Below, in pieces: positions 1-47,470 of a DNA stretch of 47,470 nucleotides. This DNA comes from a virus. Position numbers and translations under genes: made by a program. Under the pieces are notes generated by a model. It saw only the letters and a program-made list of their open reading frames with translations, had not been told where the DNA came from and did not search any database. The stretch's first letter is position 1. Every line of letters starts with the position of its first letter. The stretch lies in the IMG/VR virus record IMGVR_UViG_3300047311_000282, positions 1-47,470 of that record; one strand, 5' to 3'.

Positions 1-678
1 TCACGGCTGGGCCTTTTGCCGCGCGGCGCACTCCTGGATGTCCTTGAGCGCATCGTCATTGGTCGCGTAGAAATGCGGCACGCGGCCCGTCGACGCGCGA
101 TAGATCATCCCGCCAGCACGCGCGGGTCCGTGCTCCTCTTCCAATTTCTTGCCGGCTTCGCCCGCGAGCGTGATCGCCCAGCCAGCTCGACAGTGCGTGG
201 TCTCGCAGCTGGTCGAGTGCCACTGCGACATCTCGAGCTTTCCGGCGCCAGCCGTGATCGCGTCGAGGATGCGCTGATCCAAATTGACGACGACGGGAAC
301 CTCGGGATGACGCTGCCGAAACCGCTCTGCGCGCTTTTCGTCGCTCGCGTTGCGTTCGTAGGGCTCGACGGGATCTTTTCGCTCGATGCCGATCGGAAGA
401 TTTTTGGCGCGCGCGAGGTAGGCGCCCGCGAGGTAGGCGCCCGCGAGGTAGGCGCCCGCGAGGTTGGCGCGCGCGAGGTTGGCGTCCGCGAGGTCGGCGT
501 CCGCGAGGTCGGCGCCCGTGAGGTTGGCGCCCTCGAGGTTGGCGTCCGCGAGGTTGGCGTCCGCGAGGTAGGCGCCCTCGAGGTAGGCGCCCTCGAGGTT
601 GGCGCGCGATCCTCCTTCTTCTCCGCGTCGCCACTTCTTGTGCTTATCGAGAATGATCTTCAGCTCGGCTGTCGTCAT
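1..678 (-). CDS. Pentapeptide-repeat protein, short allele/paralogue (225 aa)
   Basis: A short charged N-terminus (about 1-24) leads into 12 complete A(N/D/Y)L-type pentapeptide repeats, expected to fold as a right-handed quadrilateral beta-helix. A 22-residue linker (KNLPIGIERK... to ...ERNASD) follows, then a conserved C-terminal domain with [10 protein letters not shown] and [11 protein letters not shown] motifs. The start has a good Shine-Dalgarno (GAGGGGA). The stop lies at the window edge. A second version occupies 46698-47459, with 22 repeats and no linker insertion. Known pentapeptide proteins such as Qnr and MfpA mimic DNA and bind gyrase; a DNA-mimic or anti-host role here is inference. 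The C-terminal domain is known to me only as a companion of pentapeptide repeats. Confidence 0.85.
   Translation of the reverse strand: MTTAELKIILDKHKKWRRGEEGGSRANLEGAYLEGAYLADANLADANLEGANLTGADLADADLADANLARANLAGAYLAGAYLAGAYLARAKNLPIGIERKDPVEPYERNASDEKRAERFRQRHPEVPVVVNLDQRILDAITAGAGKLEMSQWHSTSCETTHCRAGWAITLAGEAGKKLEEEHGPARAGGMIYRASTGRVPHFYATNDDALKDIQECAARQKAQP
406..611. repeat. 15-bp coding minisatellite (left copy)
   Basis: Tandem 15-bp units of the type GTTGGCGTCCGCGAG and GTAGGCGCCCTCGAG. On the minus strand they are in frame and each unit encodes one pentapeptide ([15 protein letters not shown] and similar). Unit-to-unit identity is high at the DNA level, so slippage or recombination would add or remove whole pentapeptides without a frameshift. 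Confidence 0.9.
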
Positions 679-688
679 AGGATTCCCC

Positions 689-982
689 TCAGACTTGCGG
701 TTGGAGTTGAACCTTCACGGCGCGCGCGAGCGTTGAATGGCACGCCTTGCAGTTGGCGTATTCGAGGAAGCTGTCTTCGTCGGCGACAACGGGTCGCACC
801 TGGTGTCCGATGGGCGGCTCCGTTTCGGTCGCCCACCGCGCGTCGTCGGCCTTGATGGCCGCGTGCGTCTCACGCGTGCAGATGAGCGCGCCGGCCAGCA
901 CCTGGCCGAGCTTCATCGCGTTGTCGCAGCGAGCTTGATCGCCGGGCACATGCAGAAGACGACAGCGGGGGCAGCGACACAT
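689..982 (-). CDS. Small Cys-rich (zinc-binding?) early protein, 97 aa
   Basis: Starts with the ATG at 982, which overlaps the stop of the upstream gene by one base (TGATG), so the two are probably translationally coupled. The N-terminus MCRCPRCRLLHVPG holds a CxCxxC cluster, and NCKACH sits near the C-terminus. Such spaced cysteine pairs suggest zinc binding. Function is unknown. It belongs to the leftward early operon, upstream of the pentapeptide gene. Confidence 0.65.
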   Translation of the reverse strand: MCRCPRCRLLHVPGDQARCDNAMKLGQVLAGALICTRETHAAIKADDARWATETEPPIGHQVRPVVADEDSFLEYANCKACHSTLARAVKVQLQPQV

Positions 983-4955: not shown

Positions 4956-5338
4956 GCGAGGATATCCGCGAGCTGCAGCGGCTCACGCAGCGAGCAATGG
5001 CAGCAGCACACCAGGTCGATCAGCGCCTGGAGTCACCGGCTTCCGCGCGCGTCATTGTTGCCGCGCGTGTGTTCCTCGCCGAAGTCGACAAGGTCTGCGT
5101 GGTCGAGCAGCCATGGCAGTACAAGACGCTTGCCGGCGTACTGACCGCTGAGGCTCCCGCGCCAGACGAGACACCGTGGCCGCAGATTGGCGACGACATC
5201 GTTATCAAAGCAGGCCAGGAGCTGCTCCGCCGCGGTCGGGTGAAGTTTGAATACGAGCACCTGGGCGAGCGCGCGTTTCACTGTGAGTGGTCTGGCGGCA
5301 GCTTCGAGGCGCTGGTGAGCGAGTGCCTGCGCCCGTGA
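4952..5338 (+). CDS. Unrecognised early protein, 128 aa
   Basis: GTG start overlapping the previous stop (GTGA). Helical N-terminus ([18 protein letters not shown]). No cysteine motif, membrane segment or recognised family. Coupled to the sigma-like gene downstream by another GTGA overlap. Confidence 0.6.
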
Positions 5339-5838
5339 AATCGCGTCGATCGCAGACGCTGGACCCGAAGGCCCTTCGCCGCCTGGTGATCAGGGAGGCC
5401 CAGTCCGACGACGGCCTCGAGCTTCTGTACCCACGACCGCGCACGCGGGGCGAGTGCTGCGATGAGCCGCGGCCCTGTCCTTACGTCGGGTGCCGCTATC
5501 ACCTCTATCTCGACGTCAACGAAGAGACGGGCGCGCTCAAGCTGAACTTCCCGAGCCTCGAGCCGTGGGAGCTGCCCGACACGTGCGCGCTCGACGTCGC
5601 CGATCGCAAACCTCACAACCTAGAAGCCGTTGCCGAGCGACTCGGCGTGGTGCGCGAGCGCGTGCGCCAGATCGAGGTACGTGCCCTCGTGAAGCTGCGC
5701 GTCGTCGGCATCGACGACCCCGAGCCGCTGCACACCTCGCGACAGGAGCTTTTCGAGGAACACTCCGAGCCGTTTGGTTGGGCCGTCGAGTTTCGCCGGC
5801 AGCTCATCGAGGCGATGAAGAAGCGAGGCATCGGATGA
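5335..5838 (+). CDS. Sigma-70 region-4-like HTH protein with Cys-rich N-half, 167 aa
   Basis: Residues about 101-127 ([20 protein letters not shown]) are a near-perfect sigma-70 region 4.2 helix-turn-helix, the part that contacts the -35 element. An upstream patch ([20 protein letters not shown]) may bind zinc. Regions 2 and 3 of sigma factors are absent, so it cannot be a full sigma factor. More likely it is a -35-type DNA binder or an RNA-polymerase-associated switch for phage genes. GTG start chosen for the GTGA overlap at 5335-5338. Confidence 0.75.
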
Positions 5839-7578: not shown

Positions 7579-10184
7579 GCGTCTCTCTCATCGGCGCGCC
7601 CCAGATGGCGCTCGAATACATCCAGCGTGGCTGGCAGGTCACACCCGTGCGCCCGCGCGAGAAGCGGCCGATCCACGACGACTGGCCGATGCTCAACATC
7701 ACGGCCGCCGACGTGCCGCGCTACTTCTCGCCCAACCACAACGTCGGCGTGATCCTCGGCGACGTATCGCAGGGCCTGGTCGACATCGATCTCGACTGCC
7801 CGGAGACGATCGCGCTCGCCGATCACTTCCTGCCGGCGACGGGCGAGTTCGGTCGCGCATCCAAGCGTCGGTCACATCGCCTCTACTACGCCCGCGGCGC
7901 GCGCACCGAGAAGTTCCTGCAGCCGCTCGGCGCCGGCAAAACGCAGACGCTCGTCGAGCTACGCGCGAACAAGATCGGAGCAAAGGAAGGGCTGCAGACC
8001 GTTTTCCCGCGCTCGATCCACGAGTCCGGCGAGGCCGTGGAGTGGGAGACGGATAAACGCGAGCTCACGACGATCACGCCCGAGCCGCTCCGGCGCGCGG
8101 TCGCCCAGCTCGCCGCGGCCGCGCTCCTGGTGCGCGTGGGCTGGCCAGAGGCGCGCGCGGTCGCCGCCGTCAAGCTGGGCACTGCCCACGCGCTCATAGA
8201 CGCGCTTGCCGAGGAATACGCGCTCGTTGCCCGCTGGCTTGGCCTGCCCGCGCGCGCGCATCAGCCAGCGCGCCCAGCGGGCGCGCCCGCCAACAATCGG
8301 GTGAAGCGCGCCTCGGCCTACCTCGCCAAGATCGAGGGCGCGGTCAGCGGCGCCGGCGGCCATCAGAAAGCCTGGGGAGCTGCGCTGGCGGTGGTGCGCG
8401 GCTTCGATCTGGCCGAAGGCGAGGGCTACACGCTGCTCGCGAGCGAGTACAACCCGCGCTGCGATCCGCCATGGAGCGAGCGCGAGCTGCGCCACAAGAT
8501 CGCCGACGCGTCCAACAACGCGCGCGTGGAACGCGGCTATCTCTTGCGCCAGGAGCGGCCGATCACCGCTCGCACCAATGGTGTCGCGCACGTAGCTCAA
8601 GAACCGAGTCCTCAGCCGACCACCAGCGACTGGGATCCGCCCGTCGAGTTTGGCGCGTTCGAGCTGCCACCATTTCCCGCTGAGGCGCTGCCGTCGCAGC
8701 TTGGCGACTTCGTGCGCGCCTGCGCGCTTGCCACGCAAACGCCGATGGACCTTCCTGGCATGCTGGTGCTGAGCGCCACGGCCGCCTGCTGCGCCAAGCG
8801 AGTGGTGCTCGAGGTGAAGCCCGGCTACCGCGAGCCGTTGAACCTGTTTACGCTGGCGGCGCTGCCGTCAGGTCACCGCAAGAGCGCCGTGCTTCGCGAG
8901 GTCGCAGCGCCGCTCATCGAATGGGAAGCAAAAGCCGCCGAAGATAAAGCCCCTGAGATTGCGAAGGCGTCGCAACGCTGGGCGATCTCGAAGAAACGAC
9001 TCGACAGCATTACCGACCGTGCCGCCAAGGCTAAAACGAAAGGAGAACGAGAGCAGCTCGAGCTCGAGGTCGAAGATCTCACCGAGCAGCACGCAAAGCT
9101 GACGTTGCCCCCCGAGCCGCGCATCCTCGCCGACGACGTAACCCCTGAAGCCCTGGGGTCGCTGTTGGCGAAGTACGGCGGCCGCATGGCCATCCTCTCC
9201 GCCGAGGGTGGCGTGTTTCAACAGATGGCCGGTCGCTACTCCGATTCGCCCAACCTGGACGTGTACCTCAAAGCTCACGCAGGTGATGAAATCCGAGTCG
9301 ATCGGCAGAGCCGTGGCGCTGAACGAGTGACCGATCCTGCGCTCACGCTTGGGATCTCACCACAGCCCCATGTGCTCGAGGCGTTGGCAGAAAAACCGCT
9401 CCTTCGCGGGACGGGTCTGCTCGCGCGCTTTCTCTACGCGCTGCCCACTTCGATGTTGGGAGCGCGAACCGACGACGCACCGCCCATCCCTGATGCCGTT
9501 CGGTCGGCATACGTTGGAGCGCTGCGGCGCCTTCTCGTGTTGCAGGCTCAGAAAGAGCCGTTCGCATTGAAGCTGTCCCCTGAAGCCTATCAAGCCTGGC
9601 GCGAGTTCTACCTGTGGGTCGAACCACAACTCGCCGAAGGCGGTGAGCTCGAATCAATATCTGATTGGGGGTCGAAGTTACCGGGTGCGGTCGCACGCAT
9701 CGCGGGAATTTTGGGGATATTGAGGATATTGTGCCTTAAAGCCAATTCTGAAGATCTATCTATATCTATATATATCGACAGGGAGGAGATGGTTCGCGCC
9801 ATCGCTCTCGGCAAGTACCTGGTGCCCCATGCTCGAGCGGCATTCTCTTCGATGGGAGCCGACCCGAAACTGCAAGGCGCCAAGCAGCTCCTGAAGACCG
9901 TTCTCCGCAAGGGCTGGTCTTCATTTTCTCGACGAGAACTGCAGCAATCGGTGCGCAGGTCTGAGCGCTTCAATGACGCGGACCAGCTCGATGCTGCATT
10001 GAGGGTTTTGGTTGAACGCGGATTCATCCGTCCCCAGGCGCCTTCGATGAGCGCTGGACCAGGCAGACCCGCCGGACCGACCTTCGAAGTGAACCCGCAT
10101 ATCCCGGAAAATATCCTCAATATCCACAAAAACCAGGCGAGCGCCCATTTACGTGAGCGCGAGCCCGGAGAGGACGACGAATGA
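7575..10184 (+). CDS. Replication protein: prim-pol domain fused to DUF3987 (869 aa)
   Basis: Residues about 10-210 match the bifunctional primase/polymerase N-terminal domain: GWQVTPVRP, then GLVDIDLDCPE with metal-binding Asp70/Asp72, then KRRSHRLYY. A middle part (about 245-325) resembles a primase C-terminal domain. From about 365 the protein looks like DUF3987, a phage/plasmid helicase-like ATPase, with a Walker-A-like LAALPSGHRKSAVL in which the canonical GK is HRK. It should prime and possibly unwind phage DNA. An AT-rich island with repeats lies inside the gene at 9705-9785. Confidence 0.8.
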   Translation: MSVSLIGAPQMALEYIQRGWQVTPVRPREKRPIHDDWPMLNITAADVPRYFSPNHNVGVILGDVSQGLVDIDLDCPETIALADHFLPATGEFGRASKRRSHRLYYARGARTEKFLQPLGAGKTQTLVELRANKIGAKEGLQTVFPRSIHESGEAVEWETDKRELTTITPEPLRRAVAQLAAAALLVRVGWPEARAVAAVKLGTAHALIDALAEEYALVARWLGLPARAHQPARPAGAPANNRVKRASAYLAKIEGAVSGAGGHQKAWGAALAVVRGFDLAEGEGYTLLASEYNPRCDPPWSERELRHKIADASNNARVERGYLLRQERPITARTNGVAHVAQEPSPQPTTSDWDPPVEFGAFELPPFPAEALPSQLGDFVRACALATQTPMDLPGMLVLSATAACCAKRVVLEVKPGYREPLNLFTLAALPSGHRKSAVLREVAAPLIEWEAKAAEDKAPEIAKASQRWAISKKRLDSITDRAAKAKTKGEREQLELEVEDLTEQHAKLTLPPEPRILADDVTPEALGSLLAKYGGRMAILSAEGGVFQQMAGRYSDSPNLDVYLKAHAGDEIRVDRQSRGAERVTDPALTLGISPQPHVLEALAEKPLLRGTGLLARFLYALPTSMLGARTDDAPPIPDAVRSAYVGALRRLLVLQAQKEPFALKLSPEAYQAWREFYLWVEPQLAEGGELESISDWGSKLPGAVARIAGILGILRILCLKANSEDLSISIYIDREEMVRAIALGKYLVPHARAAFSSMGADPKLQGAKQLLKTVLRKGWSSFSRRELQQSVRRSERFNDADQLDAALRVLVERGFIRPQAPSMSAGPGRPAGPTFEVNPHIPENILNIHKNQASAHLREREPGEDDE
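9705..9785. other. AT-rich island inside the primase gene, candidate replication origin
   Basis: In a GC-rich gene this stretch is strongly AT-rich (GATCTATCTATATCTATATA at its core) and encodes a run of Ile, Leu and Ser. It starts with two direct copies of GGATATTG. Origins of many phages lie within or beside the replication gene. No initiator binding is demonstrable here. Confidence 0.45.
9715..9730 (+). repeat. Left arm of 16-bp inverted repeat (iteron-like)
   Basis: GGATATTGAGGATATT, itself two GGATATT units nine bases apart. An exact inverted copy occurs at 10110-10125 near the end of the same gene. Confidence 0.7.
10110..10125 (-). repeat. Right arm of 16-bp inverted repeat (iteron-like)
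   Basis: AATATCCTCAATATCC, the exact reverse complement of 9715-9730. A further related GGGATAT lies at about 10099-10105 on the same strand. The codons here spell ENILNIH. Confidence 0.7.
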
Positions 10185-45418: not shown

Positions 45419-46483
45419 TTATTGCGGCGTCAGCTCGGAGTGAGCCCACTCGAGCCGCTTGAACTGCGAGTCGTCGGTGTTGGCGTTGCCGCAGCACACG
45501 TCGAAGTAGCTGCAGGTGTTGCCGTAGCGCTGGCACGCGTCGGGATTACGAGGCGCCAGCTGCAGGCGGTGGTGCTCGCGAAGCATGCCGGCGAGCTGCC
45601 AGAGCTCGGCGTCGGCCTCCGCCATCTGCTGCTCGAGGCGCACGACCAGGCCGCGCTGGTAGTACTTGTCGGGCTCCTCGGCGATCGCGGCGCGCAGCCG
45701 CTCCTTGTACTCCTCGACAGTCTCGGCGACCGCGCGCTTGGCGCCAGGCTGATACGGGCGCAGCTGCGGCTTGCGCACGACGTCGTAGATGACGCCGCCC
45801 ACCTGGTGGCCGAGCGCCTCCACGCCGCGGATGTAGCCGCTCGCCTGACCGCCCATGCGCAGACGCGCCCACCAGCTCGAGCCCGGCGTGACGTCCTCTG
45901 ACGACGTCTTGTGCTCCATCACGAACGCGCGGCCCGTCGCGTCGCACACCAGCACGTCGAGCTTGCCGGCGCGCTCGAAGGTGCGGCTCTTCGCGCCCGT
46001 CTCGGGATTCACGAGCGGCGCGCGGAACTCCAGCTCCACGCCCAGCACCTCGAAGTGCTCAGCGCCCCAGCGCGCGTCGTAGCCCTCGAGCATTACCTCC
46101 GCGCGCGCTAGCTCGTAGGCGTCGGTCTCGGGCGTGGCGTGGTTGCGCATATGAGCGGTGGCAGCCGGCAGGGCGATGTCCGCTTCCTCGTTCGCCGGCG
46201 AGTGCGCGACCCACCACGCCTCCATGCCGTGGTGCCAGAGCGTGCCGAACCTCAGCGCGTCAGCGGTCGTTGCCGAGACGACTCCCTCGACGTAGCGCAG
46301 GTGCTCCTCGCGCAGGCAGCGGCGCGCCACCTGGCAGCGACTCTCGGTCAGCAGATCGAGCTTGCCAATCGGCGATGGCTTGCTCCCACGCTCCCTCGCT
46401 GTCGGAGTCGGTCCCGTGGCGTCGACGTCCCGCTGGATAGGTTCGATCGTCATGCTTGGTGTGCCCCACGATTCCTCCTTCAT
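45419..46483 (-). CDS. Cas4/RecB-like exonuclease with probable Fe-S cluster, 354 aa
   Basis: PD-(D/E)XK motifs are visible: FGTLWHHG, GKLDVLV (Asp176) and FVMEHKT (Glu190, Lys192). Cysteines at 50 and 56 near the N-terminus plus the C-terminal CQRYGNTCSYFDVCCG are arranged as in 4Fe-4S Cas4/AddB nucleases. Expected to resect DNA ends for the Sak4-like annealer. Start at 46483 with GGGAGGG six bases upstream; an in-frame ATG at 46453 is an alternative. Confidence 0.82.
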   Translation of the reverse strand: MKEESWGTPSMTIEPIQRDVDATGPTPTARERGSKPSPIGKLDLLTESRCQVARRCLREEHLRYVEGVVSATTADALRFGTLWHHGMEAWWVAHSPANEEADIALPAATAHMRNHATPETDAYELARAEVMLEGYDARWGAEHFEVLGVELEFRAPLVNPETGAKSRTFERAGKLDVLVCDATGRAFVMEHKTSSEDVTPGSSWWARLRMGGQASGYIRGVEALGHQVGGVIYDVVRKPQLRPYQPGAKRAVAETVEEYKERLRAAIAEEPDKYYQRGLVVRLEQQMAEADAELWQLAGMLREHHRLQLAPRNPDACQRYGNTCSYFDVCCGNANTDDSQFKRLEWAHSELTPQ

Positions 46484-46701
46484 CGGACCCTCCCAGCGAA
46501 CAGCCACGACAGCAGCGCGAACACGAGACTCGCCACCACACAGCCGATCACGACTGTTGGAGACGTCTGCACCCGCGCCCACCTGGTTGTCTCGTCGGGC
46601 TGCTGCACCGGCTCGAGGTCATAGCTCTTGATGACGCTCAGGTGCGGCCGACGGGGCGGCGTGCCGAGCTTCCTCTGATACTTCTCGAGCTCGCCGTTCA
46701 C
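46480..46701 (-). CDS. Small C-terminally anchored membrane protein, 73 aa
   Basis: GTG start overlapping the stop of the pentapeptide gene (GTGA). The last 25 residues form one membrane segment (VVIGCVVASLVFALLSWLFA) with a short basic end. The soluble part is basic and faces the cytoplasm by the positive-inside rule. ATGA overlap with the exonuclease gene. Role unknown. Confidence 0.6.
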   Translation of the reverse strand: MNGELEKYQRKLGTPPRRPHLSVIKSYDLEPVQQPDETTRWARVQTSPTVVIGCVVASLVFALLSWLFAGRVR

Positions 46702-47459
46702 GGCTGGGCCTTTTGCCGCGCGGCGCACTCCTGGATGTCCTTGAGCGCATCGTCATTGGTCGCGTAGAAATGCGGCACGCGGCCCGTCGACGCGCGATAG
46801 ATCATCCCGCCAGCGCGTGCGGGACCGTGCTCTTCTTCCAGCTTCTTGCCCGCCTCGCCCGCGAGCGTGATCGCCCAGCCAGCTCGACAGTGCGTGGTCT
46901 CGCAGCTGGTCGAGTGCCACTGCGACATCTCGAGCTTTCCGGCACCGGCCGCGATCACATCGAGGATGCGCTGGTCGAGATTCGCGACGACAGGGACCTC
47001 AGGATGGCGCGCGCGAAACCGTTCGGCGCGCTTCTCGGCGCCCGCGAGGTAGGCGCCCTCGAGGTTGGCGTCCGCGAGGTTGGCGTCCGCGAGGTTGGCG
47101 CCCTCGAGGTTGGCGCGCTCGAGGTTGGCGTCCGCGAGGTTGGCGTCCGCGAGGTTGGCGTCCGCGAGGTTGGCGCCCTCGAGGTTGGCGCCCTCGAGGT
47201 TGGCGCGCTCGAGGTTGGCGTCCGCGAGGTTGGCGTCCGCGAGGTTGGCGCCCTCGAGGTAGGCGCCCTCGAGGTTGGCGTCCGCGAGGTTGGCGCCCTC
47301 GAGGTAGGCGTCCGCGAGGTTGGCGTCCGCGAGGTAGGCGCCCTCGAGGTAGGCGCCCTCGAGGTAGGCGCCCTCGAGGTTGGCGCGCGATCCTCCTTCT
47401 TCTCCGCGTCGCCACTTCTTGTGCTTATCGAGAATGATCTTCAGCTCGGCTGTCGTCAT
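46698..47459 (-). CDS. Pentapeptide-repeat protein, long allele/paralogue (253 aa)
   Basis: Same N- and C-terminal parts as the gene at 1-678, but with 22 complete pentapeptides and without the 22-residue linker insertion ([10 protein letters not shown] follows directly). The C-terminal domain differs at a few residues ([23 protein letters not shown]) and at several silent sites. Expected beta-helix about five coils long versus three in the other copy. Possible DNA mimic, by analogy only. Confidence 0.85.
47038..47386. repeat. 15-bp coding minisatellite (right copy)
   Basis: More than 20 tandem 15-bp units, mostly GTTGGCGTCCGCGAG, GTTGGCGCCCTCGAG and GTAGGCGCCCTCGAG. They encode the pentapeptides of the longer protein. 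The unit order differs from the left copy, as expected for repeat expansion and contraction. Confidence 0.9.
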
Positions 47460-47470
47460 AGGATTCCCCT

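Follow-up and report, generated by a model that had tools for sequence, protein, structure and literature searches.

Two versions of a pentapeptide-repeat gene at opposite ends of a phage contig: tandem copies favored over strain alleles

IMG/VR record IMGVR_UViG_3300047311_000282, all 47,470 bases of which were analyzed here (hereafter the window), carries one pentapeptide-repeat protein gene in two versions, one at each end. This layout raises the question of whether the record runs through two strain versions of a single-copy gene, as an earlier note on this DNA had put first, or through two tandem copies in one circular genome, which that note had put second. Real precedents were found for both readings, and the evidence leans to the second of them: a tandem pair or larger cluster of such genes in a circular genome is favored over strain alleles, and we consider it the probable, if by no means assured, explanation.

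Layout of the two gene versions

The two versions, termed A and B, are both intact open reading frames on the minus strand. Their main features, with those of the flanking genes, are as follows.

1..678, minus strand: gene A, a pentapeptide-repeat protein of 225 aa with 13 units, a linker, and a C-terminal helical domain
46698..47459, minus strand: gene B, the second version of gene A, 253 aa with 23 units and without the linker
409..603, minus strand: A array, with 13 units (A-x-L-x-x) of 15 bp each
47040..47384, minus strand: B array, with 23 units of 15 bp each
340..405, minus strand: linker of 22 residues, KNLPIGIERKDPVEPYERNASD, in A only
1..117 = 46698..46814, minus strand: shared edge 1, covering the 3' end of the gene, 117 bp identical by exact comparison
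564..689 = 47345..47470, minus strand: shared edge 2, covering the leader, the start codon, and the first units, 126 bp identical by exact comparison
679..689 = 47460..47470, minus strand: leader AGGGGAATCCT, with the ribosome site
689..982, minus strand: small gene upstream of A, the stop codon of which (691-689) abuts the leader of A
45419..46582, minus strand: exonuclease gene (phrog_1218) downstream of B and on the same strand

These coordinates bear out much of what had been claimed for the locus, namely that two gene versions lie flush with both ends of the record, that their outer parts are identical over 117 and 126 bp, and that a 22-residue linker is present in one version and absent from the other. 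The claim of 12 versus 22 repeats stood as far as the divergence of the arrays is concerned; the numbers themselves become 13 and 23 when the count begins at the first ANLEG unit, the difference lying in how units at the array edges are counted. Outside of the arrays, A and B share 93% identity over 300 bp, far above chance. As linkers of similar style follow the array in most relatives, the lack of the linker in B looks like a derived state.

Genome context and the joined ends

The window encodes a phage-like gene set that includes a terminase, a portal protein, a primase-helicase, ParB, a large serine recombinase, a Sak4-like protein, and an exonuclease. The run of minus-strand genes that includes A and B goes on over both record ends, and a circle fits this arrangement. 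When the record ends are joined (sequence over the join: ...GATTCCCCT followed directly by TCACGGCTGG...), a gene-to-gene junction, TGA-AGGGGAATCCT-ATG, is formed; that joining would place one stop codon directly before the ribosome site of the next copy had been noted earlier and proved correct. We infer that A and B are neighbors within a single genome.

A record from elsewhere, G001 (IMGVR_UViG_3300047319_000568), is 99.96% identical to window positions 10088-35016 (24,929 bases, 9 mismatches), indicating that the same virus is present in a second metagenome. Since G001 covers 10088-35016 only, it does not reach the join, and no second contig or near-identical record was found to cross it. 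In a search for records crossing the ends, the exact 64-bp edge pattern had no occurrence elsewhere, and no join-spanning record was recovered with the upstream ORF, the ORF at 1291-1803, the exonuclease gene, or the Sak4-like gene as queries.

Protein family and predicted structure

Membership of A and B among pentapeptide-repeat proteins is indicated by PF00805 scores of 63.9 and 113.5 bits, respectively, against a cut-off of 20.2, and a match to phrog_31265 covers the C-terminal domain (E 4e-37 and 8.4e-60). The family to which they belong combines a pentapeptide array with a helical THCRAGW domain (phrog_31265, function not assigned). The predicted structure has a strand every five residues, forming a right-handed beta-helix that is followed by helices, and its best solved match is Nostoc NP275. 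Like the Pfam PF00805 proteins NP275 and HetL, A and B have the repeat signature and a predicted right-handed beta-helix, but they differ from both in an extra C-terminal helical domain. Taken alone (window 1-342, minus strand), this domain is predicted to be all-helical with a mean pLDDT of 89.5; it has no relative among solved structures, whether by sequence or by fold, and one marginal viral match was obtained. Its invariant residues (W, H, C, T, H, C, R, G, and W, in a motif starting with WH) could, as a guess, form a metal site or a disulfide.

The gyrase-binding pentapeptide proteins Qnr and MfpA have the repeat fold in common with A and B, but the best NCBIfam score for these families was 43 bits, far under cut-offs of 240 and more. 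By analogy with other pentapeptide proteins, the beta-helix may bind a host protein or a DNA-binding enzyme. PADLOC returned no match, and annotated phage and plasmid collections gave one weak match and one match on a Bordetella plasmid.

Mosaic divergence between the two versions

Of 113 codons compared in the C-terminal part, 25 are not the same in A and B, and 21 of these differences are silent. They are not spread evenly, as the following blocks illustrate.

247..339, minus strand: first divergent block of A (codons 114-144), where dS against B is 1.17
160..246, minus strand: identical core, codons 145-173, dS 0 (the identical run spans 158-246)
118..159, minus strand: second divergent block of A (codons 174-187), with saturation at silent sites

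Beyond the core (codons 145-173), dS between A and B is also 0 over the N-terminal 27 codons and the last 38 codons (188-225), and the longest identical codon run is above expectation (p 0.001). The same clustering of differences was seen in several tandem pairs of the loci and records L245, L256, and G030. To judge from the sequences, this patchwork of dS would represent a gene-conversion mosaic. It is unlike the drift of two strains in one population, and would need either conversion among long-standing copies or acquisition from a distant relative.

Tandem clusters and array variants in relatives

More than one copy of the family gene was present in 5 of 77 virus records (G030, G033, G034, G035, and G036), in each case as true head-to-tail copies. 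In the natural clusters that were measured, adjacent copies are 585-799 bp apart, their C-terminal domains share 86-93% identity, and identical runs reach up to 110 bp; the stop codon of one copy overlaps, or lies close before, the start of the next. By the same measures, A and B when joined have a spacing of 773 bp, a C-terminal domain identity of 91.2%, and an identical run of 118 bp. The spacing, divergence, and junction of the joined pair fit natural clusters.

In four of the five multi-copy records, a contig end lies inside the cluster or at most 0.8 kb from it. One of these relatives, G033 (IMGVR_UViG_3300037522_000055), encodes five copies, and its contig ends nearly meet inside one of them (about 3 nt are missing), with end sequence that is common to other copies over 116 and 77 bp. 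Judged by analogy, this record is the closest precedent for the window layout. Together with G034 (3300047994_000225) and G030 (3300036768_000843), it resembles A and B in the C-terminal domain, the variable array, the head-to-tail order on one strand, the spacing, the divergence, and the patchy identity. In these three records, however, the copies stand side by side in one contig, whereas for the window we infer the join, and the N-terminal part of the window genes (phrog_7713 type) is unlike theirs.

Variation in array length was also found within a virus. The loci L026 and L032 belong to near-identical viruses with 0 mismatches over 2.3 kb and a lone 165-bp (11-unit) indel in the array. They come from neighboring data sets, and the array-length polymorphism lies around 5073-5537. 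The literature searched contained no report of phage pentapeptide genes in tandem copies or with allelic arrays.

Contig ends and assembly breaks

A first protein search gave 49 matches, 20 of which were at most 200 bp from a contig end, where 0.9 would be expected. A second search, with the C-terminal domain alone as the query, placed a contig end at most 500 bp away on the array side of the domain in 20 of 79 virus loci, and on the other side in 2 of 79. For the terminase of this phage, the corresponding count was 6 of 80; among contigs of at least 30 kb, the counts were 14 of 33 for the family gene versus 0 of 32 for the terminase. Since the enrichment of contig ends is on the array side, it follows that arrays of phrog_31265-type genes break assemblies. 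Pentapeptide proteins have been reported to be 26 times commoner in long reads than in assemblies (PMC9238414).

Among sister records, G007 has a self-overlap of exactly 127 bp within its array, and the closure of G010 likewise involves 127 bp, which suggests k=127 for those assemblies. A third record, G008 (IMGVR_UViG_3300044714_000251), has two different array versions at its ends that share 58 and 33 bp, a layout like that of the window.

The allele and two-copy tandem readings were compared over k in an idealized assembly graph. With alleles, a break is forced at every k tested and the contig ends k bases from the first or last difference; k=117 is needed at the left end of the window and 126 at the right. 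With a two-copy tandem and k of at most 117, the outer edges of the repeat node fall within 1 nt of the window ends, whereas at k of at least 127 there is no branching k-mer and the circle should close. Neither graph matches the window ends perfectly. A reading of 117 and 126 as k=127 minus 10 and minus 1 was dropped as numerology without a trimming mechanism.

Weighing the explanations

According to the favored reading, the window would be an assembly, close to being closed, of a phage genome that is circular or circularly permuted and has at least two head-to-tail copies, A then B along transcription, or has A and B as the outer copies of a larger cluster. Duplication of the stop-to-leader unit would have come first. 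The 15-bp arrays, as their pattern suggests, would then gain and lose units, while gene conversion or unequal crossing-over would keep the ends of the gene and the C-terminal domain core alike and the parts between them would stay diverged. The long stretches common to the copies would halt the assembler between them, leaving the copies at opposite ends of the contig. Tandem copies are preferred because A and B differ outside of the array as tandem paralogs do, unlike the allelic pair L026 and L032, and because joining the ends yields a gene-to-gene junction such as natural clusters have. The enrichment of contig ends had led to an early lean toward alleles, which the natural tandem clusters and the dS mosaic reversed. 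As a counterpoint, if the k of this record was 127, as the overlaps in G007 and G010 suggest for theirs, a two-copy tandem should have closed, which favors alleles or more than two copies.

The chief alternative is a single-copy gene, versions A and B of which occur in co-existing strains, with the contig running through both arms of a fork in a circular graph. We regard this as rather unlikely. Strain-type forks that end contigs have been described (PMC10563150; PMC10914622), and as in the forks of those COBRA and Phables papers, the window would end where several paths meet; further, alleles force a break at this gene whatever the k, array-length variants are real (the 11-unit indel between L026 and L032), and G008, too, has a different array version at either end. 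In a bubble at fixed k, however, both edges have length k, and those of the window, at 117 and 126 bp, are unequal and not set by one k. Moreover, the array is the sole difference between L026 and L032, whereas saturated silent divergence in two blocks further separates A from B, and it would be chance that the window ends at a stop codon and just before a ribosome site. An assembly chimera, in which one copy or its array came from another virus and was wrongly joined, is improbable: 15-bp arrays do cause breaks in this gene family, and the longest exact repeat within gene B, at 71 bp, makes a misjoin possible at short k, but both copies are intact with the same edges and domains, and G001 supports the middle of the genome at 99.96%. 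A linear genome, the physical ends of which bear diverged gene copies, agrees with the class given to the record in IMG/VR (linear), but is very improbable. Where packaged phage genomes have terminal repeats, these are normally identical, and exact comparison of the record ends found no exact direct terminal repeat of at least 10 bp; in addition, the same-strand gene run continues over the ends, and relatives hold the gene inside contigs.

Implications

Virus contigs whose ends fall in pentapeptide arrays are in many cases nearly complete circular genomes interrupted at a single gene, and neither the copy number nor the array length of that gene should be trusted when derived from short reads. 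Short-read virus catalogs lose such genes, and clusters of them would be hidden since they break contigs. Both this kind of protein and this kind of assembly break are known; the recurrent clustering of the gene in phages is less usual. If tandem copies are indeed present, the locus adds an instance of concerted evolution, here in a small cluster of phage genes whose helical domain is uncharacterized. A more speculative suggestion, which we hold to be doubtful, is that in some environmental phages the clusters might act as a recombination-driven store of diversity, in which the ends and core are homogenized, the 15-bp arrays are shuffled among copies, and the length of the beta-helix surface shifts quickly.

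Short repeats in the window

The 8-mer TTCACGGC occurs at 46697-46704 and 713-720, flanking the gene unit on either outer side, as well as at the joined ends; it is a possible candidate substrate for duplication. Elsewhere, near the end of the primase-helicase gene, a 31-nt inverted repeat with 84% complementarity lies at 9700-9730 and 10110-10140, its arms 379 nt apart.
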